A stretch of 64,000 nt of DNA from Arthrobacter globiformis NBRC 12137 (GTDB lineage: Bacteria; Actinomycetota; Actinomycetes; Actinomycetales; Micrococcaceae), in NCBI RefSeq assembly GCF_000238915.1, contig NZ_BAEG01000037.1, forward strand, positions 1 to 64,000, read 5' to 3'. The notes under the pieces are model-generated. The model was not told the DNA's origin and searched no databases. It worked only from the letters and a program-made list of their open reading frames with translations. Shown piece by piece: positions 6,498-55,970 of this stretch. The number at the start of each line of letters is the position of its first letter. Positions within the stretch are counted from its first letter, which is position 1. A program made the position numbers and the translations under genes.

Positions 6498-7883
6498 CTA
6501 GAAGCCGCCGCCTCCGCCGGCGTCCCCAGCCATGTTGGCGAACCGCGAGTAATGGCCCTGGAAGGCGACCACGATGTCCTTGGTAGGGCCGTTACGGTGT
6601 TTGGCCACGAGGATGTCTGCCTCACCGGCCCGCGGGGACTCCTTGTCGTAGACGTCCTCGCGGTGCAGCAGAATCACCATGTCGGCGTCCTGCTCGATGG
6701 AACCCGACTCACGCAGGTCCGAGACCATGGGGCGCTTGTCCTGGCGCTGCTCAGAACCACGGTTCAGCTGCGACAGCGCGATGACAGGCACCTGGAGTTC
6801 CTTGGCGAGCAGCTTCAGCGCACGGGAGAACTCGGAGACTTCCTGCTGGCGGGACTCCACCTTCTTGCCCGAACTCATGAGCTGCAGGTAGTCAAGGATG
6901 ACGAGTTTGAGGTCGTGCTGCTGCTTGAGGCGGCGGCACTTGGCCCGGATCTCCATGAGGGACATGTTGGGGCTGTCGTCAATGAACAGCGGGGCATCAT
7001 TCATGCGCCCCATGGTGGTAGCAATCTTGGACCACTGCTCGTCCTTGATGGTGCCCTTGCGAAGGTCCTGCAGGCCGATGGTGGCCTCGGCCGACAGGAG
7101 ACGCATGGCGATCTCGTTGCGACCCATTTCCAGGGAGAACATCACTGTGCTCAGGTTGTTCTTGATGGCTGCCGAGCGGGCAAAGTCCAGTGCGAAGGTG
7201 GACTTACCCACGGCAGGCCGGGCAGCAATGACGATCATCTGGCCCGGATGCAGCCCGTGCGTCAGCTCGTCCAGCTCGTAGAAGCCGGTGGGGACGCCCA
7301 CCATGCCCTCGCCGCGGTGGCCGGAGGCCTCGATCTCATCCACCGTGGACTCCATGACGTCCTTCAGGACGACGTAGTCTTCCGCCGTGCGGCGCTCGGC
7401 CACCGCGTAGACCTCCGCCTGGGCCTGGTTGACCAGGTCTTCGACCTCGCCGTCCTGCCCGTACCCGAGCTGCACGATCTTGGTGCCGGCATTGACCAGC
7501 CGCCGGAGCACGGCGCGCTCCGCCACGATCTCGGCGTAGTAGCCTGCGTTCGCGGCCGTGGGTACCGTCTGAATGAGCTCATGGAGGTAGGCAGGTCCGC
7601 CGATCCGGTTGATCTCGCCGCGTTTGGTCAGCTCATCGGACACCGTGACGGCATCCGCGGGTTCTCCGCGGCCATAGAGGTCAATGACCGCCTCGTAGAT
7701 GGTTTCGTGGGCAGGGCGGTAGAAGTCTTGCCCGCGCAGGATCTCAACCACGTCCGCAATGGCGTCCTTGGAGAGCATCATGCCGCCCAGGACGGACTGT
7801 TCGGCGGGGATATCCTGGGGAGGTTTACGGCTGCCTTCGGATTCGCGGGTACCTTCGATTGAGTCCAGGTGCGTAACTGACAA
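6498..7883 (-). CDS. dnaB: Replicative DNA helicase DnaB
   Basis: The hexameric fork helicase, 461 residues from a TTG start at 7881-7883. I prefer this TTG because a GGAGG lies 9 bases upstream and conserved sequence begins there; upstream codons in the same frame look non-coding. The N-terminal domain (P-A-E-Q-S-V-L-G-G-M-M) is followed by the RecA-like domain with Walker A A-R-P-A-V-G-K-S-T near residue 225 and Walker B L-V-I-L-D-Y-L-Q-L-M. The arginine-finger region D-L-R-E-S-G-S-I-E-Q-D-A-D is present. There is no intein, unlike many mycobacterial DnaB proteins. It lies 3.5 kb from rplI, its usual neighbour, and has a DnaA-box-rich upstream region. Confidence 0.97.
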   Translation of the reverse strand: MSVTHLDSIEGTRESEGSRKPPQDIPAEQSVLGGMMLSKDAIADVVEILRGQDFYRPAHETIYEAVIDLYGRGEPADAVTVSDELTKRGEINRIGGPAYLHELIQTVPTAANAGYYAEIVAERAVLRRLVNAGTKIVQLGYGQDGEVEDLVNQAQAEVYAVAERRTAEDYVVLKDVMESTVDEIEASGHRGEGMVGVPTGFYELDELTHGLHPGQMIVIAARPAVGKSTFALDFARSAAIKNNLSTVMFSLEMGRNEIAMRLLSAEATIGLQDLRKGTIKDEQWSKIATTMGRMNDAPLFIDDSPNMSLMEIRAKCRRLKQQHDLKLVILDYLQLMSSGKKVESRQQEVSEFSRALKLLAKELQVPVIALSQLNRGSEQRQDKRPMVSDLRESGSIEQDADMVILLHREDVYDKESPRAGEADILVAKHRNGPTKDIVVAFQGHYSRFANMAGDAGGGGGF

Positions 7884-8048
7884 AGCTGCCGTCCTCCAAT
7901 GTGTCCGCAGTCCGTGCAGGAGGACTGCGGCGCGTGTGCCGTGTGCCGTGGGTGGGCCGCGCAGCAAGTATCTGCTGCCCGGGCTGGTGCAACTACACCA
8001 GCAGGCCCTGACATTTTTCGGTCCTGGCCGTTGAACCCAGGCGACGCC

Positions 8049-8565
8049 TCATCCACAGGTTTTCCACAGGGCAGCACTAATCTCCCGGAGCCCGGCTGTT
8101 CGCTGGCTCCGGTATTCAGGCCGGCAGGGAAAACTCACCCGAATGGGGTGTCTCCGCTACGTTAGCGCCCGGGTGGCCACTCACAAAGCCGGCAGTTTCG
8201 CACCTCTGTGGATAACGTGTGCACAACAGACTGCTGCTTGTGCACAGCCTGTGGGGGAAGCTGTGGATAGTAAATTTCTTTCCGGCATATATGCCGCTTG
8301 ACCTGCGGAAACGTTCCGATTTCCCTGTGGACAAATTTAAAATTTGCGCCAACCTTCATCCACAGCCTTAACCGTTGTCTGGGGATACCGGCCGGTAGGT
8401 CTGCCTCCGGCGGGAGTTTTCGCGGCCTGTATTCCCACTTTGTGATACTGATCACCGGCATATGTCGGGGGCCGTCCACGCATGCATGGCGCTGGACGAA
8501 CCTTCCAGTCGAGGGTCATCACAGGAGGGCAGCACCATGCGCAGCCGGGCATATGCTGTGGATAA
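8049..8565. promoter_or_regulatory. DnaA-box cluster upstream of dnaB
   Basis: The 708-bp gap between dnaB and the next gene (7884-8591) carries two perfect DnaA boxes on the minus strand (8207-8215 and 8557-8565). Single-mismatch boxes lie at 8049-8057, 8060-8068, 8262-8270, 8326-8334 and 8356-8364. AT-rich tracts at 8265-8282 and 8330-8348 stand out from the GC-rich surroundings. No gene is seen in the gap. The cluster could couple dnaB expression to DnaA level or titrate DnaA. Confidence 0.75.
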
Positions 8566-40496: not shown

Positions 40497-40823
40497 ATGA
40501 GCAACGCAAAAGATGTAACTGACGCAAGCTTCAGCACTGACGTACTCGCCGCTGACAAGCCGGTAATCGTTGACTTCTGGGCCGAATGGTGCGGTCCTTG
40601 CCGGAAGCTGGGTCCTATCCTGGATGAGATCTCGGTGGAGTACGGCGAGAAGGTCAACGTCGTGAAGGTGAATGTCGATGACAACCCGGCGATCGCCGCG
40701 GAGTACGGCATCACCTCCATTCCCGCCGTCTACCTGTTCCAGGGCGGCGAAGTGAAGAGCACGGTCATCGGTGCAAAGCCGAAGCAGTTCTTCGAGAAGG
40801 AATTCGCGGACGTTCTGTCCTAG
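40497..40823 (+). CDS. trxA: Thioredoxin
   Basis: A 108-residue thioredoxin with W-C32-G-P-C35 and the cis-proline motif S-I-P-A-V. It is the dithiol electron carrier reduced by TrxB, encoded in the same operon. A strong terminator follows at 40877. In mycobacteria and corynebacteria an amidase gene (cwlM) comes next; here a long gene-free region follows instead. Confidence 0.97.
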   Translation: MSNAKDVTDASFSTDVLAADKPVIVDFWAEWCGPCRKLGPILDEISVEYGEKVNVVKVNVDDNPAIAAEYGITSIPAVYLFQGGEVKSTVIGAKPKQFFEKEFADVLS

Positions 40824-40876
40824 CCGTAACAGGCCTGGATGGGAAACCTGACAGGCACCGCCGGCGTTAGGCGTGC

Positions 40877-40918
40877 AAAGGTGGCCATCACTCTCAGGGG
40901 AGTGGTGGCCACCTTTTT
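40877..40918 (+). terminator. Rho-independent terminator after trxA
   Basis: Perfect 17-base arms (40877-40893 and 40900-40916) with a 6-base loop, continuing into a run of five T. Confidence 0.93.
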
Positions 40919-41231
40919 GCGTCCCTGTTGGGTATCACTCAACTGGGTCTCGCTCATTTGGGACACCTTCAACTGAGTGCCGGCGGCATCACCAGCCTCT
41001 GGACTGAGCGGGGCTTCGAGAGAGTCAAAAGGTAACCTGGTTCAATCTCTTTCTGCGGGTACATTGGCCAAGAATCATTGTGACGGTTGCAGGTCTCGAT
41101 ACAAGCGATTTCGACCCGTATGCCTCCATCGAACCGCTGCATTTTGCGTCGCGGCGGCGGCGGATCAGGTGCGCTCGACGCCGCGCGACGCCAGCCGGAG
41201 CCAGAAACGCATGTAGACGTACGCTGTCAAT

Positions 41232-41245
41232 GTTTCACGTGAAAC
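41232..41245. promoter_or_regulatory. parS: parS site 1 (perfect)
   Basis: Exact match to the 14-bp palindrome GTTTCACGTGAAAC bound by chromosomal ParB. It is the leftmost site, 409 bp from the trxA stop. Confidence 0.97.
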
Positions 41246-41860
41246 TGGCTCACTTGCGGTGGCCCGTCTAACTGGGTATACCCAGGCGACTGTTGGGACG
41301 TGGGTGGCAGCCAGGTTGACTCCGGGCACGCAGACCGTCGCGCGTACTCTTGGCCGCAGTTCTTGCCCGCACCGCCTGAGGGTTCCCTCGTCCCTGCAGC
41401 ACGCGGTCTCCGCCCTCCGCTGCCCGGTAACGAGTAATGACAATTCTCGTCTATACGCGCCAAATCCCCGTGATCGGTCCCTTTCGTACAACGCCGCTCG
41501 TTACCGGGGCCTGGCACCAGGCCCGTGCTCCCATGTGTACGGTCGGGCATTGGGAGTGATTGTCGCAGTAGTCCAGCTTCCGCATGGAATCTTGTTAGCA
41601 GGCGCCGTTCCACACGGGGAGGGACCATTAGCCGACATAAGCCATTCGCCCCGCCATCACGTGCACTCCATATTTGCTGAATCAAAGTCGCGCCTCCACC
41701 TGGCCCGCGGTACGCCTCCTGGCGGAGATCTGGAATTCTCAGCGCAAACCGGTGACTGCGCTGCTACCCATGGACGCAGCATGGCGGGCTCAACGTAGCC
41801 TCCCAGGGACACCACCCATCCCGGCCCCACGTCCGACTCGATGCCTATTCCGGCATGCGC

Positions 41861-41874
41861 GTTTCACGTGAAAC
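41861..41874. promoter_or_regulatory. parS: parS site 2 (perfect)
   Basis: Exact match to the 14-bp palindrome, 629 bp after site 1, in non-coding sequence. Confidence 0.97.
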
Positions 41875-42938
41875 ATGATCGCCGCGGGGAATTAGTCAGC
41901 CGCCTACCGCCAGTTATCGGCTCCAGCACAGGCGGCACTAGAGAATCCCGATCGATCTCCCCTAAGGGACCAGCGCCTGCCCGTGATCTGAGATCGACCC
42001 GACCCTGCACGGATGGCTCAGCACGCGAGTGCCCTGCCCGCGTCAGCTTGGAACATCCTGAAGCACCCAAACACGCCCTTCCCCAGCGTTTCCCGGCCTG
42101 GCCAAGTCGGGTCTGGCCTGGCTAACAGGGCACCCCGCCAACACCGGGCACGCGCGATACTGTTCCGTGGGCCATACTTTTGAGCTGGTAGAGGCCCAAA
42201 AATGGGCAACATTCCTGCACCCGGATCTCGGAGATTTTTCGGATTTGTGCAATCTTGGACCACGACAGGATGGGTCGCAATACAGGGCTAACAATGTATT
42301 CAGGTTGCCAACACGACATGGTGAGCCGCGAGTTATACCCAGCCGCCGTGCAAACTCGCAGACGCCCAACGTTGACTACGGTCGACGACGCCTTCAGACC
42401 GGCCCGGCGGCGCATCCGTGGTATTGCGTCTTTCGGCTACGACCACGCCTCGCCTCGTCGAATCATTGGTACACAATGCGACATTGGCACACAGTGCGCA
42501 ATCGGTTCGGTCCGGATCGAGCTCGGGCACTAAAGGCCTCGGGCACTAAGGCAGAGCACGTTAGTGCACCGAACCAGCGGCCGGCCGAAGCAAGGTAGGC
42601 ATCCGGAATACACGCATGGACCGCTAGATACACCGCTTCTTGGAATGCGGCTCTTTCAGGAACCGGCCTAAGCGCTTCGACTGCCCGTTCGACCCTCATT
42701 GCAGCTTGTCGGGCACGCTGCACCCACGGCCACCCGGACGAGGCGAGAGGCGTGTTCTGCAGAATGCCGCCAACTGCTGTAGTCGTCATGCTTCGCCAGT
42801 CATCCTGGCGCGCCGCCAAAGCCTTGCTGCACCGTCATTCGTGCGAAGCACCGACTGCATCTAGCCGGATCCATGCTCTTCATTTTTGAGCGCAGGAGTA
42901 CATTTCGGACCGCTCGGACGTGATCGATCCGCGTCTGT

Positions 42939-42952
42939 GTTTCACGTGAAAC
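42939..42952. promoter_or_regulatory. parS: parS site 3 (perfect)
   Basis: Exact match to the palindrome, 1078 bp after site 2. Confidence 0.97.
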
Positions 42953-43207
42953 AGCGCTGCAGGTCGGCGATGTGCAGGTCCAACACAAGCACGCAGGCAG
43001 CCAAGTGGCGCCCTATTCTGGAATCAAAAGAGCGGTGGTGCGCGGGTTCTTTAGGCCTCCGTTCTTAGAGCCACGCTTGGTTTCAGCTTCTGATGAGCCG
43101 CACGTGCTAACCGTCCGTTCGCGCTCCAGGGCGCTCAGGCCTGCCGGCTACTACTTACCGGACTCTGCCACCGAACGCCTCACTGAGTACGGGGCCACCG
43201 CCTGGCG

Positions 43208-43259
43208 AAGCCGCATTCGGATCGGCGGGGTCGGTGGCATCCTCGATCCGATGCGGCTT
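43208..43259. repeat. 16-bp hairpin in the gene-free region
   Basis: Arms 43208-43224 and 43244-43259 pair over 16 bases with one bulged T and a 19-base loop. It lies 30 bp before parS site 4. No T run follows, so a simple terminator is unlikely. It could mark a structured RNA or a DNA cruciform. Confidence 0.7.
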
Positions 43260-43289
43260 GGGGGAGGGACGACTGGGCTCTAGCTCAAC

Positions 43290-43303
43290 GTTTCACGTGA
43301 AAC
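43290..43303. promoter_or_regulatory. parS: parS site 4 (perfect)
   Basis: Exact match to the palindrome, 351 bp after site 3. Confidence 0.97.
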
Positions 43304-44308
43304 GTGAGGACAGGACTGTGAGGCCCACGACCTGACTCCGCACAGGAAGAGACACGATGACCCGAAGCACCAGCCCGTCGGATGAGCTCACACAGGAGCT
43401 GGACGTACAACGCAGGTGCACTGAACGAAGCAGTGCTGAAGCAGGGCCGTCGCAAGCGTCCTTGGCCCAGAGAGCCGTCCAGGGCATCGCAGGTCCCCAT
43501 CCATCCACGCCATCCACGTTATCCACGCGTGCGAGCATATCGCGGCACGTCCCCAGCATGATTCTCCACCGAATTCTGCCGGGCGGGTTCCGGCTCCCGC
43601 GTCACCTCATAAGATGCCTTCGTGTGGACGGGCTATTCATGGCCATAGGCCTTGGCCTTGGCCTGCTGAGACGCTGCGGACGCCAACCGCGCCATAGCCG
43701 CCGACGAGATGCGAATCAAAGCAAAGCAAGCTTTGCATTTGACGGCGATTCAGTACGCAGCCTCGATCCCGATTCGAAGCACCTGGGCGGCCCCACGACA
43801 GTCAGAGCACGTGGAGCCTCTTATGCCGGAACCTAGAGAGAACTCGACAAGTCAGGGGTGGGGCAGCAGCATCCCGGCCTCCCACTTCGTCCATGCCCTG
43901 TCGTCTCACCACCGGTGCATCGTCCGCCCGGGGCAACAGAAGCGACTGGCGGACCATGGGACTAGGCTACAGCGTCCCAGTACGTGGTCGACCGGGTAGC
44001 TGGTCGATCGAGACCCGCTACGCATAGGGCAATCTCGCGCCGATTTTCAAGACGCAGCCGAGCCCGGGGAGCACTGTACCCGTGGAACGTAAGAGCGGCG
44101 GGTACTGCCCGAGTGTCAGGGCAACACGCGATGGTCCGATTCTCTATGCAGCGCCGAATGACCGCAGCGTTGAATTCCGCCCGTCACCATTGAGGATGGC
44201 GCAGGTTGGTCGGCTCAGCGGCTGGGTTCATCGCAACTGCGCTCCGGACATCCCAGCCAATCCAGCAAGGTCCAGCGTGGTTCAAGAACGCACATCCCTC
44301 TTTGTTCC

Positions 44309-44336
44309 CTGGGAGCTGGATAAGTCCAGCTCCCAG
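44309..44336. repeat. Perfect 12-bp hairpin with TAAG loop
   Basis: CTGGGAGCTGGA (44309-44320) pairs fully with 44325-44336 around a 4-base loop. It lies about 210 bp before the DnaA-box cluster and has no T run. It is the most stable short hairpin noticed in the gene-free region. Confidence 0.75.
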
Positions 44337-44546
44337 CACTGGCCAACCGGCGTCGGCTCTGGGTTGCCAATTCAAAGTCGCGCGCCACCTCGCTCAAGAC
44401 CGCATCAGTGGGGAACCCATCGGCATCTGGGTTCTGCCTTTGCCCCCCAAACTCGGTTAGGAACTCCGGACGAGGCTCACGGCACGACCGACGCTGAGGC
44501 CAGTTCGGTTACGTCACGTGCCGATATGGTGTGACTCACCATGACA

Positions 44547-44984
44547 TTATTCACACCTTTATCCACAGCCTAATTCACAGGGTTATCCACAACCTCCTCA
44601 CCCAGCCTGTGGATCCACCGGGCCATACGTGACTACAATCACGGATGCCTTAAGTCGTGGACGCACGAGCCACCAAATTGCGTGCACGAACCTGGCCGGC
44701 CCCCCGGGGGGATCACTCAGGCCAGTTCTGGCACCGCACGCAGGATAAACTACGGATTTAGGTGGATGATTACCCTTCGGACGCCACCTTGGGGCGCGGC
44801 GGAACGCGGCCCCAGCGTAGGCGATGCGTTTCACGTGAAACGTGCACGTCAGATGTCGATGAGGACCAACATCACCCGGGCCTAGCCGCATTGGCCGACA
44901 TAGCACTGGAGCTCCGCGACCTGTGTCATATCCCCAGTTTTATCCACACAGTTATCCACAGCGTTATCCACCGGCTTATCACCA
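44547..44984. promoter_or_regulatory. DnaA-box cluster around parS site 5
   Basis: Perfect TTATCCACA boxes lie at 44559-44567, 44583-44591, 44940-44948 and 44952-44960, all in the same orientation. TTATTCACA (44547-44555), TAATTCACA (44571-44579), TTATCCACC (44964-44972) and TTATCACCA (44976-44984) flank them. Two sub-clusters sit about 350 bp apart with a parS between. There are more perfect boxes here than in either interval flanking dnaA. The role could be DnaA titration (datA-like), accessory origin or regulation. Confidence 0.85.
44828..44841. promoter_or_regulatory. parS: parS site 5 (perfect), between two DnaA-box groups
   Basis: Exact match to the palindrome, 1538 bp after site 4 and about 100 bp before the second DnaA-box group. 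Confidence 0.97.
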
Positions 44985-45565
44985 GCGAAATTAGCCCAAA
45001 CGCCTGGTCCTCGAGAGGTAGTCCCGCAGCACAAACACAGGCCGAACCGGTCTCGCTCCAGGCCGATGACTTCAGTGACTGAAGAGTCGATGCCCTACCA
45101 CACGGATGCCGACAACGGTGGGACGCGAGGTCAATTCTGGGTTGGTGAGGTTAGGAACTGGTGCTGCACCAGATCGGGTAGAGGCGAGCCAGATACGCCG
45201 GATTCTGCCAGGACGACCAGAATGTCGGTACTGGCCCGGGCTTCTTCACCAGCCTGAACCAAAGCCTCGGTGCACTGGCGGGAAGCCCTGATCCGCGAGA
45301 TTGGACCCAGTGCTGACACGATTCCGCGATAGGGCTACCCAGTGTGGCCGGGGATAGTTGGGGGATTGCAGCGTTCTCGTCATGCCCCAGTCGGCCGTCG
45401 CTTCCCGGGAATTTCGGGTGGACCTGAGCAACATTTCTCTCGGAGGGTGCGCTGCACTTCCACGCTGCCACGGATATAGGGTTGGCTTCCACTTGGCTCT
45501 GCTGGGATGATTCACGATTCTGCGCCGGCTGCCAGCTACCAATGCAGGGAAATGAGGCCCGGCCC

Positions 45566-45579
45566 GTTTCACGTGAAAC
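45566..45579. promoter_or_regulatory. parS: parS site 6 (perfect)
   Basis: Exact match to the palindrome, 738 bp after site 5. It is flanked by a CCCG/CGTGG-type GC-rich context. Confidence 0.97.
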
Positions 45580-46352
45580 GTGGAACGGGCGGGGCGACGG
45601 GAGAGCGGCGCCGAGCCGCTGCAGTTGGGACGAGGCCACGTCGGCGGTAGGCGCCGCGAATCATGATGGAAGCCGGCCCGAAGATGGCCACCCTCGGATG
45701 GACGGACGCCGCGTTGCAGGGCTCGACGTAGATCGTTCATGGAAGGGCACAAGAAACCAGACGCCAGGGGATCAGCGAAGCAAGGCACGACCTGTCCTTG
45801 AAGGAGCTGTGTGCGTTGCGGTGCCCGCCCACTGGGCTGCCACAATACCCTGTCAGGCCGCGGGGAGAGGCCCGCATTCCCGGATGACCGCGAACACGGG
45901 GGATACGAATGCTGGCAGGACCTTGTGGAGCCCCTGCGGGACCCGTCCTTCGCGCCCTCAGTTATCGAGCCTGTAGCTACGAAGCGGGTCTAGGTGCGGG
46001 TGATACTCCTGCCTATCGTGGTTCCTTAGGTCCCTGTCGTTCGTTGCCAGCCGGACGCGTCTGATGACCGAGTCCGCATTCCTCTGCAGCTATGTGTCTG
46101 CGTCTCCACCCCGGGGACGCTAGGGGACGAGAGCACCTTGAGGATCCCCACGTGGCCGTTGGTACCTTGTCCACACGATACGCACGTTGGCTCCGCGCAC
46201 CTGCGATCCATTGCGTAGCGGCATACCGTCATCCAATTCAGACTGCGGAACAACACTCGAAGTCAGGCGCCCGCCAAACTCAGGCCGCTCTGGCGATGGG
46301 TCCACATCTGTCGGTCGCTCGCTGGCATAACTGGGAGCATGTGGCTTCGCTT

Positions 46353-46366
46353 GTTTCACGTGAAAC
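46353..46366. promoter_or_regulatory. parS: parS site 7 (perfect)
   Basis: Exact match to the palindrome, 787 bp after site 6 and only 107 bp before site 8. Confidence 0.97.
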
Positions 46367-46459
46367 ATGCGGCGCCTAGTGGCGGAGGCACGCCCACCTG
46401 TGTGGACCGTGACCACAGCCACCTCTCACACCAGACCCCGCCCCCTTCCCCGACCCCGT

Positions 46460-46473
46460 GTTTCACGTGAAAC
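46460..46473. promoter_or_regulatory. parS: parS site 8 (perfect)
   Basis: Exact match to the palindrome. Sites 7 and 8 form the tightest pair in the array. Confidence 0.97.
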
Positions 46474-46901
46474 GAAACGGGAACATGCGATGCCATTTGG
46501 CCCGCCGGAGCATTACAGAAGCCGGCCAACGACTCATCGGACCCATGCAAAATCAAGCAATCCGAATCCACCAGACCCGGACCTGGACTCACGAGATGAC
46601 GACCCTGGTGTTTGTGCAGCTGCGCCGTCGCGCGCTGTTGGCAGGCATCCTCGATTCGACGCCAGTCTCTGATGCGAATTGCGCACCCTTCCCGACGACG
46701 CATCCTACTGAACGTGCGGAGCGAAGATAGAACCGGCAGGTATTTGGCGCAATCCCCGTGGCCTGGACGCCTAAACCGGAAAAACTCACCCTCGAACTGC
46801 TGCACCGGCCACACTGGCACCAGCGAGACAGCAGCCCTTGAGGCTCTGGGAACAGTCGTTCAGGATCTGAAAGGCAGGCTAGAGCAGGCAGCTAGGGCGG
46901 A

Positions 46902-46915
46902 GTTTCACGTGCAAC
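46902..46915. promoter_or_regulatory. Near-parS site, one mismatch
   Basis: GTTTCACGTGCAAC differs from the consensus at one base in the right arm. It could be a weaker ParB site or a decayed one. Confidence 0.6.
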
Positions 46916-47716
46916 ATGCATCGAGTCCCAAAGTCACTCTTGCGTCTAAACCGGCGGACATACACCACCAGACCGCACTGCGCCCAGTATCATCATGAAC
47001 TGCAGGTTTGCGGGTCATGACGACGACAAAGGCACGCATGATTCCATCTCGGATCCTCCGCAACGCATAAGGCCCAAGCCCACGATGCATGTGCGGGGAG
47101 CGGAAGACCGTCGAGCCTTGACGCGTAGAGGGCACACAGGACGTGGGACGGCCGCCGGGTTGGAGCTGCTCGCTGAATGCCTGCATGGCGCTGGCCACAA
47201 CCTGAACTTAACCGAGACGGCGTGAGGAGTCGCCCTAAACCAGCACAAAACGCCGGACGTCGGTCTGAACATACAAATCCGGCGCGGCGAAGCGGCCATC
47301 GCACCATCATCCGAGCGGCACCACCGGGCGTCCCACAGACCCTATAGTGCAGCGGATCGATCCCATTGGGAAGGGCATCGGGCGGTAACCACAACCCGCA
47401 AAGTGAGGAGCAGTTGACCGCATTGGCCTGGGGTTTAAGGAACGTGCCATTGCCGCACCTCTGGAGCCAGTCATTCTCGTCCCACGTGAAACGACAAGCG
47501 GCATCGAAGCAAACCGTTGAGCAGCACTGTTCGTCTGGAGGCCGGCCTCATAAACAGCCCAAGAGGGAATCAACCCACAGGGCCATCCATCCCAAACACC
47601 AGCTCCAGTAGCCCGTCAGCCGTCTTGCAATCCAACCTGGCTGCGAAGTCGTTCCCGGGGCTAGCAAGACAGTCAAAGGCATCGACTATCTTCGCCAGGG
47701 TCCGCGCGAAGGAATA

Positions 47717-47745
47717 GAAAAGGGCCCGTTCATTCGAACGGACCC
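47717..47745 (-). terminator. Rho-independent terminator after parB
   Basis: GGGCCCGTTC (47722-47731) pairs with 47736-47745 with one mismatch and a 4-base loop. Read leftwards, a TTTTCT follows the stem. It ends the parA-parB transcription unit. Confidence 0.75.
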
Positions 47746-47763
47746 CAATCTTCGACTAGTACC

Positions 47764-49113
47764 TTAGTTGTCGGCTCCCGGAGCAAGCACATCCATGATC
47801 CGGTTGAGGTCTTCAACACTTGCGAACTCGATGCTCACGCGGCCCTTGCGCGCGCCGAGCGAGATCTTCACGTTGGTGTCCAGCCTGTCCGAGAGCGAGG
47901 AGGCCAGGTAGTCCAACCGCTCGTGGCGTGCACCAGGGCGGGGGATGTTGTTCTTGGCCGGCATCACGGGTTCGCGGTGTAGCGTTACCGCTTCCTCGGT
48001 GGCACGGACCGACATGCCCTCAGCCACGATCTTCTGGGCCAGGCGTTCCATGGAGGCTGCGTCGGGAAGCGAGAGGAGGGCCCGGGCGTGGCCGGCCGAG
48101 AGCACATTGGCTGCCACGCGACGCTGGACCAGCGGGGGAAGCTTCAACAAACGCAGAGTGTTGGAGACCTGCGGGCGGGAGCGTCCGATCCGGTCAGCCA
48201 GCTGCTCGTGCGTTGTGCCAAAATCCTCAAGCAGCTGCTGGTACGCGGCAGCCTCTTCGAGCGGATTTAGCTGGCTGCGGTGGAGGTTCTCCAGAAGCGC
48301 GTCCCGGAGCAGGTCATCATCCGTCGTGTCACGGACAATCGCCGGGATCGTGGAGAGTCCGGCGGCCTGGACTGCACGCCACCGACGTTCACCCATCACC
48401 AGCTCGTACGGTTCTCCACCCTTTTCGGTTGAAGTACGCACCACAATTGGCTGGAGGACGCCTATTTCCCGAACGGAGTGAACAAGCTCCGCCATGTCGT
48501 CCTCATCGAAGACGGTTCGCGGCTGCTTGCGGTTGGGATGGATGTCAGTAACCGGGATTTCAGCGAAACGCACGCCGGGCACCTCGACGAGATCGACGCC
48601 GTTGTCGGGGACAGCAGCGGAGCCTGCCTCGTGCCGGCCGTCGGCAGCCTGGGCTGAAGCGGCGTCGTCCTGAGGCCCGTCCACGGCGGACGAGTCCGGG
48701 CGAACGGGCCCGGACTTCTTAGCGTCCTTGGCGGCTCTGGCCGCAACAGCATTCTTGACGGCATCCGCGGCGGCACCCGAAGCGCCACCGGTCCGGGAAG
48801 CGGCGGTCTTCGCCGTTGACTTGGCAGAAGAGGCCTTCACTGAATCCGAAGCGTCCTTCGCATCCGCTTCGGTCGACTCCGGAACTTCGGAAGACTCCGC
48901 AGCCTTCCGGCCGGACCGGCGAGCCGGGGCTTCGTCGGGGACAGACACGTCCGGCCCTGCCGCAGGGACGGGTTCAGCCGTCTTGCGCGCCTCCGGGAAG
49001 AAGAGATCCACAGGGCGCGACGGAGCTGCTCCGTTACCCGAAGCGCCTGCGGAAGCGGAACTTGGAATGAGTGCGCCAAGACCGCGACCGAGCCCGCGTC
49101 GCTTATCGCTCAT
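47764..49113 (-). CDS. parB: Chromosome partitioning protein ParB
   Basis: A 449-residue ParB, about 100 longer than usual. The N-terminus [12 protein letters not shown] is the ParA-contacting segment. Residues about 40-175 are an Ala/Ser/Lys/Asp-rich disordered linker. The CTPase domain has I-H-P-N-R-K-Q-P-R near 191 and G-E-R-R-W-R-A at 241-247, then [13 protein letters not shown] and the helix-turn-helix that reads parS. The extra length lies entirely in the N-terminal linker. GGAGGG precedes the ATG. It lies 67 bp after parA. Confidence 0.97.
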
Positions 49114-49180: not shown

Positions 49181-50233
49181 CTAACGCTCAGCGATTTCCG
49201 CTGCGGCTTCCAGGTAGGACAACGCGCCGCTGGAGGATGGATCGTAGGTCATGACAGTCTGCTGGTAACTCGGCGCTTCGGAGATCCGGACGGAGCGCGG
49301 GACAACGGCGTCGAGGACCTGGTCCGGGAAGTGCTGCCGGACTTCCGCTGCGACCTGGGCGGCCAGGTTGGTCCGCCCGTCGTACATGGTCAGCAGAATC
49401 GTGGAGACCTCCAGATCCGCGTTCAGGTGCTTCTGGATCATCTCGATGTTCTTCAGCAGCTGGCTCAGGCCCTCGAGTGCGTAGTATTCGCACTGGATGG
49501 GGATGAGCACTTCGCCGGCCGCGCAGAAGGCGTTGACCGTCAGCAGTCCCAGGCTGGGCGGGCAGTCAATGAAGATGTAGTCGAGCCGCTGCTCGCCCTT
49601 CTTCTGCCGGGCTTTGGCATAGACGTCGATAGCGCGGCGGAGGCGCTGTTCCCGTGCCACCAGCGAGACCAGTTCGATCTCGGCGCCGGCCAAGTGGATG
49701 GTGGCCGGCGCGCAAATGAGGTTGCTGATGTCCGGGCACTGTGCCACTACATCTTCAAGCGCCACATCATTGATCAGCACGTCATAGATGCTGTCGACGT
49801 CGGCATGGTGCTCAATGCCCAGAGCCGTGGACGCGTTGCCCTGCGGGTCGATGTCGATGACCAGCACGTTCAGGCCGGCCGCTGCCAGCGCCGCAGCGAT
49901 GTTCACAGTGGTTGTGGTTTTACCCACGCCACCCTTTTGGTTTGAAACTGTGAAGATCCGCGTCTTCTCCGGTTTCGGCAGGTTACGGCCGAGGAGCCGC
50001 TCCCGACGCCGGTTCTCGTGCGCGAGTTCCCGGGCGATGGGGCTTGAGTCATCCAGTGTGTCCAACACGTTCCCGCGGGCCGCAGTTTCACGTGAAACCT
50101 TGGCAGCTCCCGCGCCAGCAACCGGATTGAATTGATTTGCCGTTGTAGCGACCGGTGATACGCCAAAGGCACGCGCCGACCCCAGGGACACGAACGGGGG
50201 AATCCGCTGCGTGGAGGTTTCGCTACTGGTCAC
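49181..50233 (-). CDS. parA: Chromosome partitioning ATPase ParA
   Basis: A 350-residue deviant Walker ATPase starting with GTG. Residues 1-90 form an extended N-terminus. The deviant Walker A K-G-G-V-G-K-T-T is at 100-107, followed by [11 protein letters not shown] and [11 protein letters not shown]. It binds DNA and moves ParB-parS complexes away from the origin. Codons 46-50 contain a perfect parS site. Confidence 0.97.
50085..50098. promoter_or_regulatory. parS: parS site 9 (perfect), inside parA
   Basis: Exact match to GTTTCACGTGAAAC inside the parA coding sequence, encoding V-S-R-E-T (residues 46-50) in the poorly conserved N-terminal extension. It is the perfect site closest to dnaA (about 3.9 kb). 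Confidence 0.97.
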
Positions 50234-55433: not shown

Positions 55434-55970
55434 TCCGAGGTTCTTAACCTTATTAACAGGCGCGTGTGGATAACCCTGTGGACAGTTAAGGGGACAACCG
55501 CGGTTAATGGGCTTAAAACCCTTAAGCCGTCTGTGGATCACCGCAACCGGCCAAAAATGTTGTCCCCATCCACAGCCTGTTTAAAACGTGCCGAACCCAC
55601 AGTCCATGAACAGGGCTTAACCGCGGATCTGCACCGCGAAACCGGGTTATCCACAGTTTCCACAGCAGTTATTAACACTACTAATCCCAAAAAATTGAAG
55701 TCCCTCAAACAACAATCTCCATCCCCGACCTCCCCGCACCGGCCAAAGCACCGGCCACTTGGCCGCCGGCAGAGCCGGCGTCACTGGCGGGGATGGGGAA
55801 ATCCTTGTAGTTCCGGCTAAGCTGTCTGCAGCGCTCCCATCCCTGGGTTTGTTTGCGGTCGGCCATGCGTGGACCATGCAGGTCAAGGGCTTTGGGGGCA
55901 ACGGTCTTATGGGCTCCTTGCGAGTTCCCGTTCAGAAAATGGCAGCAGCAATGAAAGGCGGCACCCTTCC
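55434..55970. other. oriC: oriC, dnaA-dnaN interval
   Basis: The main actinobacterial origin location. Perfect DnaA boxes lie at 55465-55473 (reverse) and 55647-55655 (forward), with weaker ones at 55477-55485, 55532-55540, 55566-55574 and 55656-55664. AT-rich tracts at 55437-55460 and 55664-55700 are candidates for unwinding. No gene is present. Confidence 0.88.

Follow-up and report, generated by a model that had tools for sequence, protein, structure and literature searches.

The window analysed here, the whole 64,000-nucleotide stretch of Arthrobacter globiformis NBRC 12137 DNA, raises the question of what a 6,940-bp interval without recognizable genes does between trxA (end at 40823) and parB (end at 47764). 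The answer to which we incline, at slightly better than even confidence, is that this gap is the chromosome's predicted centromere, in which ParB would load and DnaA bound to two arrays of boxes would time the start of segregation. A centromere role is likely because the gap combines three properties: (i) absence of a conserved gene; (ii) an array of parS sites; and (iii) centrally placed groups of DnaA boxes.

The longest stop-to-stop frame in the gap has 247 aa, versus 207 ± 39 aa in 200 shuffles, and frames of at least 60 aa are somewhat commoner than expected (78 versus 65 ± 5). None of the 50 longest of these 78 frames matches Pfam at E 0.01. Rfam, searched over 38-52 kb, gives no match in the gap and just two sub-threshold snoRNA matches, located in parA and parB; a sigma-70-like promoter scan, which is a weak test, finds 0 sites versus 2.3 expected; and a search of plasmids and phages with the gap yielded no match.

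The perfect parS 14-mer (GTTTCACGTGAAAC) occurs eight times in the gap, spanning 5.24 kb, and two of these sites match the full 16-mer. Over the whole 4.95-Mb assembly, nine perfect 14-mers are found (these eight and a ninth within parA), all within 8.9 kb, and one further site, at 46902, has a single mismatch; a control with the pattern reversed has 0 matches in the same assembly. When up to three mismatches to the 16-mer are allowed, the window holds 10 matches versus a shuffle mean of 0.07. Perfect parS sites are, in short, far above chance and clustered by parAB and oriC, and both a cognate ParB and a ParA-type AAA_31 protein are encoded, as in a ParABS centromere. The sites are spaced slightly more evenly than expected at random (CV 0.67 versus 0.82). 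The earlier note on this DNA had described a gene-free region of about 6.8 kb carrying eight perfect parS sites over 5.2 kb. The frames of chance length and the lack of Pfam matches bear out the former claim, for a slightly larger region (40824-47763), and the genome-wide 14-mer search confirms the latter.

Table 1. Positions of the features discussed, numbered from the first nucleotide of the window.
Feature	Position	Strand	Basis or remark
Terminator-like hairpin and T-run after trxA (left fence)	40877..40916	+	inverted repeat
Gene-free trxA-parB gap (predicted centromere region)	40824..47763	.	Pfam, shuffles, relatives
parS 1	41232..41245	.	perfect 14-mer
parS 2	41861..41874	.	perfect 14-mer
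parS 3	42939..42952	.	full 16-mer match at 42938-42953
parS 4	43290..43303	.	perfect 14-mer
DnaA-box array A1	44547..44591	+	four boxes, exact 12-bp steps: 44547, 44559, 44571, 44583
parS 5 (central, between both DnaA arrays)	44828..44841	.	perfect 14-mer; position conserved in genus
DnaA-box array A2	44928..44984	+	five boxes, exact 12-bp steps: 44928, 44940, 44952, 44964, 44976
parS 6	45566..45579	.	perfect 14-mer
parS 7	46353..46366	.	full 16-mer match at 46352-46367
parS 8	46460..46473	.	perfect 14-mer
Degenerate parS	46902..46915	.	1 mismatch
Terminator-like hairpin and T-run after parB (right fence)	47721..47746	-	consensus scan
parB	47764..49113	-	Pfam ParB_N, HTH_ParB, ParB_C
parA	49181..50233	-	Pfam AAA_31, CbiA
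parS 9 (inside parA, outside gap)	50085..50098	.	perfect 14-mer
dnaA-dnaN spacer, probable oriC	55434..55868	.	DnaA boxes, low-GC stretch; about 10.5 kb from A2

Close to the midpoint of the gap are two arrays of DnaA boxes, A1 (two perfect boxes, one with 1 mismatch and one with 2 mismatches) and A2 (two perfect boxes, one with 1 mismatch and two with 2 mismatches). All nine boxes keep a strict register and lie some 10.5 kb away from oriC, and parS 5 is situated 112 bp ahead of the first perfect box of A2. The lowest 50-bp GC averages 0.41 in the DnaA element, 0.48 in the gap flanks and 0.29 after dnaA; a modest AT dip occurs about 200 bp ahead of A2. These arrays do not appear in the earlier note. 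As to the probable oriC itself, both strands of the dnaA-dnaN spacer carry DnaA boxes, and GC falls to 30% over a 50-bp stretch; dnaN was identified by Pfam, and dnaA from its place in the gene order and from tblastn hits in 76 relatives.

The comparison with relatives started from 80 named ParB loci, 72 of which also hold trxA. All 72 of these relatives retain the trxA-parB gap, which measures 3.9-8.8 kb and holds 5-11 perfect parS in each, and a parS is present in the parA stretch in 70 of the 72. The spacer cannot be aligned even to the nearest relatives, save for the gap ends and both DnaA arrays. The positions of parS are mostly not conserved, with the exception of the site beside the DnaA arrays: the offset of the central parS is -111 with a standard deviation of 9.4 (59 loci), versus 419 and 534 for the neighbouring parS. 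The earlier note's proposal of a ParB-loading platform, or centromere, thus gains sequence-based support from the persistence of gap and parS over a diverged spacer. Its expectation of conserved parS positions among variable spacers was correct for the spacers and mostly wrong for the positions. Likewise, its description of a region not shared with genes suits the gap of the window but not at least 3 of 74 complete gaps, which contain acquired genes (transposases in L026 and L015, several genes in L035), nor the ninth parS, inside parA. That centromere reading was also incomplete, as the kept internal sequence is the pair of DnaA-box groups.

In the 72 scored loci, perfect DnaA boxes within the element number 152 forward and 1 reverse, and there are 0 in the 366,685 bp of gap outside it. 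The A1-A2 distance is 364 ± 22 bp, the commonest box step is 12 bp, and the element is centred at 0.52 ± 0.05 of gap length. A parS stands no more than 133 bp from the start of A2 in all 72 genus loci (perfect in 70, with one mismatch in the other two), while random mid-gap points reach a parS that closely in a mean of 18.3 of 72 loci and a maximum of 30 (2000 draws); the nearest parS is on the opposite side of A2 in 11 of the 72. In the genus, then, DnaA boxes lie beside parS in a conserved arrangement beyond chance, as in the Caulobacter type.

All 80 loci of one clade (clade support 1.0) that could be tested have both box groups, and the two-group arrangement is absent from 47 other measured family loci; since the 80 loci are related by descent, they are not independent observations. 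This set comprises the window, 72 named loci, L010 and L013 (from one metagenome bin), L035/L174, and L115, L116, L121 and L127, the last four being loci of two sister genera in which the boxes are looser. None of these four has a parS close to A2: in L115 and L116 a parS occurs about 110 bp past the start of A1, whereas L121 and L127 have no parS within 450 bp of A2. In addition, A2 of L116 has one box alone, with two near-matches reversed, and an IS separates the two arrays in L015. In eight of the 80 named loci the sequence does not include trxA; of these, L010, L013 and L035 (extended sequence) carry the element; L050, L051, L054, L058 and L073 were too short and were left out of the element count; and L112 and L113, duplicates of L004 and L012, were counted once. 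Regarding the 60 family loci, 7 lack trxA within reach and 4, chosen by their boxes, entered the detailed array measurement. A strict-pattern search of the collection failed to detect two known positives, G076 from the same genus and G044 from a sister genus, and, in consequence, its negatives are weak.

Both ends of the gap carry terminator-like hairpins. The consensus terminator scan found 6 versus 5.4 in shuffles, and the left hairpin is absent from its list. Across the gaps compared, such hairpins are predicted at the ends in 65 of 73 on the trxA side and 69 of 73 on the parB side, versus 45 of 292 control pieces.

On these grounds, a working mechanism can be proposed. With parS as loading sites, ParB clamps would spread along the gene-free DNA, while the hairpins would fence the gap so that ParB is left undisturbed by transcription. 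DnaA, for its part, would assemble on the 12-bp-phased boxes of A1 and A2. Either rising DnaA activity, or the removal of DnaA as the fork from oriC passes (about 10.5 kb away), might then alter the loading or release of ParB at the central parS, and segregation would begin together with replication. A more specific version, which we put forward tentatively and at less than even confidence, is that a composite centromere arose once in the Arthrobacter lineage: a multi-kilobase gene-free ParB platform with a mid-gap DnaA filament module that may gate ParB loading at one privileged parS and act as a physical replication-segregation switch. In the literature searched, with most subscription papers outside its scope, no report of such a centromere in Arthrobacter was found.

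Other readings have to be weighed against the predicted centromere timed by DnaA. It is possible, though less likely, that the arrays are a sink which titrates or inactivates DnaA near oriC, is replicated early and restrains re-initiation, the nearby parS being an independent centromere. The strict register and origin proximity of the nine boxes, which form a datA-like cluster outside oriC, would suit such a sink, as would the lack of an AT-rich unwinding region at the arrays, the harmless place that a gene-free gap offers to boxes, and the four sister-genus loci whose arrays have no parS close to A2. Nevertheless, a sink leaves unexplained both the closeness of parS to A2 in 72 of 72 genus loci (with one mismatch in two of them) and the element's place near the middle of the parS region. 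We give little credence to a plain ParB-loading centromere whose boxes may bind DnaA without any role in segregation or replication control. All the parS evidence (the array, its genome-wide clustering and the 72 of 72 relatives) would agree with it, and in other genera parS arrays occur that have no accompanying DnaA arrays (e.g., L118, L119, L133 and L138). Against it, the DnaA arrays are the sole internal sequence aligned as kept while the spacer turns over, with both box groups in every testable clade locus.

Similarly improbable is an auxiliary or split origin, in which the two arrays and the mildly AT-rich DNA separating them would act either by themselves or jointly with the dnaA-dnaN region. 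DnaA boxes phased in one direction, with a modest AT dip ahead of A2, are what recommends it, and it is weakened because no AT-rich unwinding region lies beside A1 or A2, where the 50-bp GC minimum is 0.41, versus 0.29 after dnaA. Moreover, the boxes beside dnaA are kept in all 76 loci with a dnaA hit (partial in L030), and an origin in the gap would put the transcription of parB and parA against the fork, whereas it is co-directional with a fork from the dnaA-dnaN region. Finally, decayed or overlooked genes, such as cwlM-like remnants, are very improbable contents of the gap, even though eight family relatives encode a CwlM-like protein (two PG_binding_1 domains and Amidase_3) directly after trxA, acquired genes occur in some clade gaps, and longer frames show the slight excess mentioned above. 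Two CwlM-like proteins match nothing at E 0.01 in the gap of the window or in the 72 genus and 4 sister-genus gaps. When ORFs were compared against ORFs, a clade ORF matched 4 other gaps at most, whereas in every one of the 8 controls the CwlM-like ORF matched all 7 others; this test is blind to single-species genes, and the three gaps with genes are a lower bound. A coding gap was rejected on these two comparisons, together with the shuffle-range frames and the lack of Pfam matches. The zeros of a codon-position GC coding filter are weak because it missed known genes: the CwlM-like gene in five family controls (L118, L119, L129, L131 and L148), as well as the transposase frame in L015.

Groups of DnaA boxes outside oriC modulate initiation in Escherichia coli (datA) and Bacillus subtilis (DnaA-box clusters), and A1 and A2 resemble them in their location outside oriC; neither is known to be tied to parS at fixed spacing. 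According to a review (PMC6399470), initiator binding at a centromere has been described for Caulobacter and for chromosome II of Vibrio cholerae. In Caulobacter, parS is bound by DnaA, and a parS that is still unreplicated moves when DnaA is low (Mera et al., 2014, as cited in PMC6399470). As in Caulobacter crescentus, where the review places DnaA boxes at an origin-region parS, the initiator and ParB targets adjoin here; unlike there, one parS out of eight is flanked by two one-directional arrays with 12-bp steps, and the surrounding actinobacterial DNA is gene-free. DnaA binding and its effect, reported for Caulobacter, are predictions here (PMC6399470). The rctA/parS2 locus of V. cholerae likewise has a centromere site within an initiator-binding locus, although its initiator is RctB rather than DnaA and its origin is plasmid-like; rctA also contains a small ORF believed to yield no protein (PMC6399470). 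The parS cluster of another actinobacterium, Corynebacterium glutamicum, has ten sites, nine of them intergenic, at which ParB and SMC load; those sites extend over 35 kb and lie 73 kb away from oriC, whereas here a single 6.9-kb gap holds eight sites, with DnaA arrays at its centre, and the term "DnaA boxes" occurs 0 times in the available text of that paper (PMC7083940).

The coupling between the start of replication and the start of segregation in bacteria is still being worked out. The module found here is compact, has countable parts (nine boxes and one central parS) and is kept lineage-wide against a background diverged beyond alignment; therefore, deletions, inversions and spacing changes would probe that link directly. 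The predicted centromere would also have its own gene-free territory within a gene-dense chromosome. As a minor observation, GC skew within the window gives no clear signal and is tied to gene direction.

The interval (gap) between trxA and parB is a real, conserved, gene-free parS region with a clade-specific core of DnaA boxes, the clade being the loci of Arthrobacter, Pseudarthrobacter and Paenarthrobacter (genus loci) together with four sister-genus loci. The earlier note had described eight perfect parS sites over about 5.2 kb in a gene-free region beside parB. Both the array and the region are borne out: eight perfect 14-mer palindromes are counted over 5.24 kb, and 72/72 measured relatives keep a gap with parS. 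In the window, the 16-mer parS is matched 10 times with up to three mismatches (0.07 expected), while the whole assembly (4,953,885 bp, 124 contigs) contains nine perfect 14-mer sites plus one with a mismatch, all ten confined to 41.2-50.1 kb of the window; the reversed pattern, used as a control, has no match in the whole assembly. Among a sample of 39 relatives, 24 of the 24 other genomes of the same genus have 6-12 perfect parS each. When one folding criterion is applied, a terminator-like hairpin comes after trxA in 65 of 73 gaps and after parB in 69 of 73, compared with 45 of 292 control pieces; a terminator consensus scan of the window picks up the parB hairpin and not the trxA one, its total sites being no more than in shuffles.

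The DnaA-box consensus is TTATCCACA. With at most one mismatch, it occurs 27 times in the window (4.2 expected), with one cluster in the middle of the gap. This cluster, a feature absent from the earlier note, is a pair of arrays, A1 and A2, hereafter the element. Double boxes phased at 12 bp (up to three mismatches) number ten in the whole genome: (i) seven in the gap cluster; (ii) two beside dnaA; and (iii) one elsewhere. The reversed double-box pattern, as a control, has a single match in the whole genome. About 200 bp before A2, in the window (44697-44790) and at the same place in relatives, there is also a mildly AT-rich block whose interior GC minimum averages 0.43 and which in some loci contains a partly conserved motif, AAAATTAACC...GATTTA.

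Features of the interval between trxA and parB, in window positions
Feature	Position	Strand or location	Description
trxA-parB gap	40824-47763		between convergent genes
A1	44547, 44559, 44571, 44583	forward	four boxes, exact 12-bp steps, 0-2 mismatches each
A2	44928, 44940, 44952, 44964, 44976	forward	five boxes, exact 12-bp steps, 0-2 mismatches each
parS 5	44828	between A1 and A2	112 bp before first perfect A2 box

From a ParB search of the named genomes, the best 80 of 210 loci were kept, labelled Arthrobacter, Pseudarthrobacter and Paenarthrobacter, with one Micrococcaceae bacterium. For 72 of these 80, the locus also includes trxA, downstream of parB, and the gap between the two genes is in every case 3.9-8.8 kb long and holds 5-11 perfect parS. 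The only parts of the window's gap that blastn aligns with relatives are the gap ends and the two DnaA arrays, the spacer being unalignable even against L002-L004, whose ParB proteins are 84-85% identical. Forward boxes (at most one mismatch) occur at two places in 73/73 gaps, L077 having a single box at each. Automated array pairing scored 72 of the 73 and left out L015, whose arrays lie about 1.85 kb apart with an integrase-core-domain frame, probably an IS, between them. In the 72 loci, the group starts are 364 ± 22 bp apart, the element centre lies at 0.52 ± 0.05 of the gap length, and 12 bp is the commonest box step; perfect boxes inside the elements number 152 forward and one reverse, and there are none elsewhere in 366,685 bp of gap.

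The nearest perfect parS is found 87-133 bp before A2 in 59 of the 72 loci and past the A2 start in 11; L041 and L047 have no such perfect site, and carry a one-mismatch parS 87 and 122 bp before A2, respectively. The parS-A2 offset has a standard deviation of 9.4 bp (59 loci) versus 419 and 534 bp for the flanking parS, and a point drawn at random mid-gap falls within 133 bp of a parS in a mean of 18.3 and a maximum of 30 of the 72 loci (2000 draws). Within the genus, then, a single parS keeps its place relative to A2 while the other sites drift. The alignment across relatives suggested by the earlier note, where conserved parS positions amid variable spacer would support a centromere, comes out in favour, with a caveat: the spacer is variable and one parS is fixed beside A2, but the remaining positions shift. 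In the 11 other-side loci (L033, L048, L052, L053, L061, L062, L065, L072, L077, L079 and L080), the distance to A2 is similar (88-115 bp vs about 111 bp) and the side is opposite.

Regarding coding content, the longest gap frame (247 aa) is within the shuffle range (207 ± 39), frames of at least 60 aa are somewhat commoner than in shuffles (78 vs 65 ± 5), and none of the 50 longest gap frames matches Pfam at E 0.01. ORFs of at least 80 aa were compared among 77 clade gaps and eight family controls with a CwlM-like ORF: each clade-gap ORF matches at most four other gaps, and, as a positive control, the CwlM-like ORF matches the other seven in each of the eight controls. The top clade ORF group comprises five close relatives whose matches fall in frames on either strand, the pattern expected of similar DNA. 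The gap of the window has no credible gene, and no ORF is widely shared among the clade gaps, but at least 3 of 74 complete gaps hold acquired genes: (i) L026, with IS21-like IstA- and IstB-type genes; (ii) L015, with the integrase core domain of the probable IS; and (iii) L035, with several genes among parS sites, some with Pfam matches. The last is the gap of Pseudarthrobacter albicanus (L035 11245-21245 and L174), which has GntR/aminotransferase, DHDPS-like, EamA transporter and other genes between parS and departs most clearly from the gene-free pattern. Despite the inserted genes, A1, A2 and the parS beside A2 are all retained in the three loci.

The remark that cwlM occupies this place in mycobacteria and corynebacteria is valid inside the family, because a CwlM-like gene (two PG_binding_1, i.e., peptidoglycan-binding, domains plus Amidase_3) adjoins trxA in L118, L119, L123, L129, L131, L145, L148 and L151, and no remnant of it is found in the clade gaps tested, including that of the window. 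A search of the own genome, run without a positive control, found no CwlM-like match.

Beyond the genus, a family-wide ParB search matched 61/61 genomes (32 genera); 60 loci were taken, with a gap measurable in 53 (76 bp to 7.3 kb). Two box groups are present in 6 of these 53: L112 and L113, duplicates of named loci, and the sister-genus loci L115, L116, L121 and L127, from two other genera. The remaining 47 gaps have at most scattered one-mismatch boxes, with no two groups, and outside the clade nearly all phased double boxes are found on the side of the locus where dnaA lies. Eight named loci had first been set aside, of which L010, L013 and L035 have the element and the other five are too short. 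The element is found in 80/80 testable loci (76 genus and 4 sister-genus). In a midpoint-rooted FastTree phylogeny of ParB+ParA+RsmG (140 loci), all loci with the element group together in one clade (support 1.0), for which a single gain would be the simplest origin.

A strict triple-box pattern, which misses the known positives G076 and G044, matches eight of the 297 genomes screened in the order: six of the eight from the same genus, plus two more. The pattern parS-N(85-115)-TTATCCACA, blind to lineages with another DnaA-box consensus, has two matches in 396 genomes of the phylum, both from the same genus. Of the two triple-box genomes outside the genus, G102 has at its site no parS and no par, trx, murJ, rsmG or dnaA query match within 17 kb. 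In the second, G173, from another family of the order, three phased DnaA-box cores with linker PVDKTVDKSVDK lie inside the parB coding sequence (L173 8331-8362), with parS in the same region; they may represent a separate link between DnaA and par, or may simply reflect codon use by chance.

Both strands of the spacer that follows dnaA carry DnaA boxes, and all 76 loci with a dnaA hit retain boxes next to that gene. In this spacer the 50-bp GC minimum is 0.29 on average, compared with 0.41 for the element and 0.48 for the gap flanks; the element therefore has no unwinding region of the kind an origin should have, which speaks against that role.

Beyond the observed anatomy and conservation of the gap, the parS array and the DnaA element, a mechanism can be proposed: ParB would load at the parS cluster and spread over the gene-free DNA, DnaA would assemble on A1 and A2, and its state would change how ParB loads at, or is released from, the central parS and, with that, the timing of segregation. 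The main rival is that the arrays titrate DnaA. The parS neighbour of A2 in the genus favours coupling over titration, but the sister genera count against a strict parS-A2 tie: they have a looser element, whose groups are 404-469 bp apart; L115 and L116 miss the parS close to A2 and have one about 110 bp beyond the start of A1, and L121 and L127 lack any parS closer than 450 bp to A2. Precedents for such coupling are given in a review: in Caulobacter, DnaA binds parS and low DnaA moves unreplicated parS, and Vibrio cholerae parS2 lies within a locus bound by the initiator RctB (PMC6399470). A second review reports links between DnaA and ParA or ParB for B. subtilis, V. cholerae and D. radiodurans (PMC7022226). 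In C. glutamicum, ten parS over 35 kb, nine of them intergenic, are described as recruiting ParB and SMC (PMC7083940). Passages of a further source place ParABS in actinobacteria and do not name Arthrobacter parS (PMC4255298).

A second DnaA-box cluster in the window (8049-8565; two perfect and five one-mismatch boxes, mixed strands) sits upstream of dnaB (6498-7967, minus strand), the gene for the replicative helicase, and DnaA might control that gene through it.
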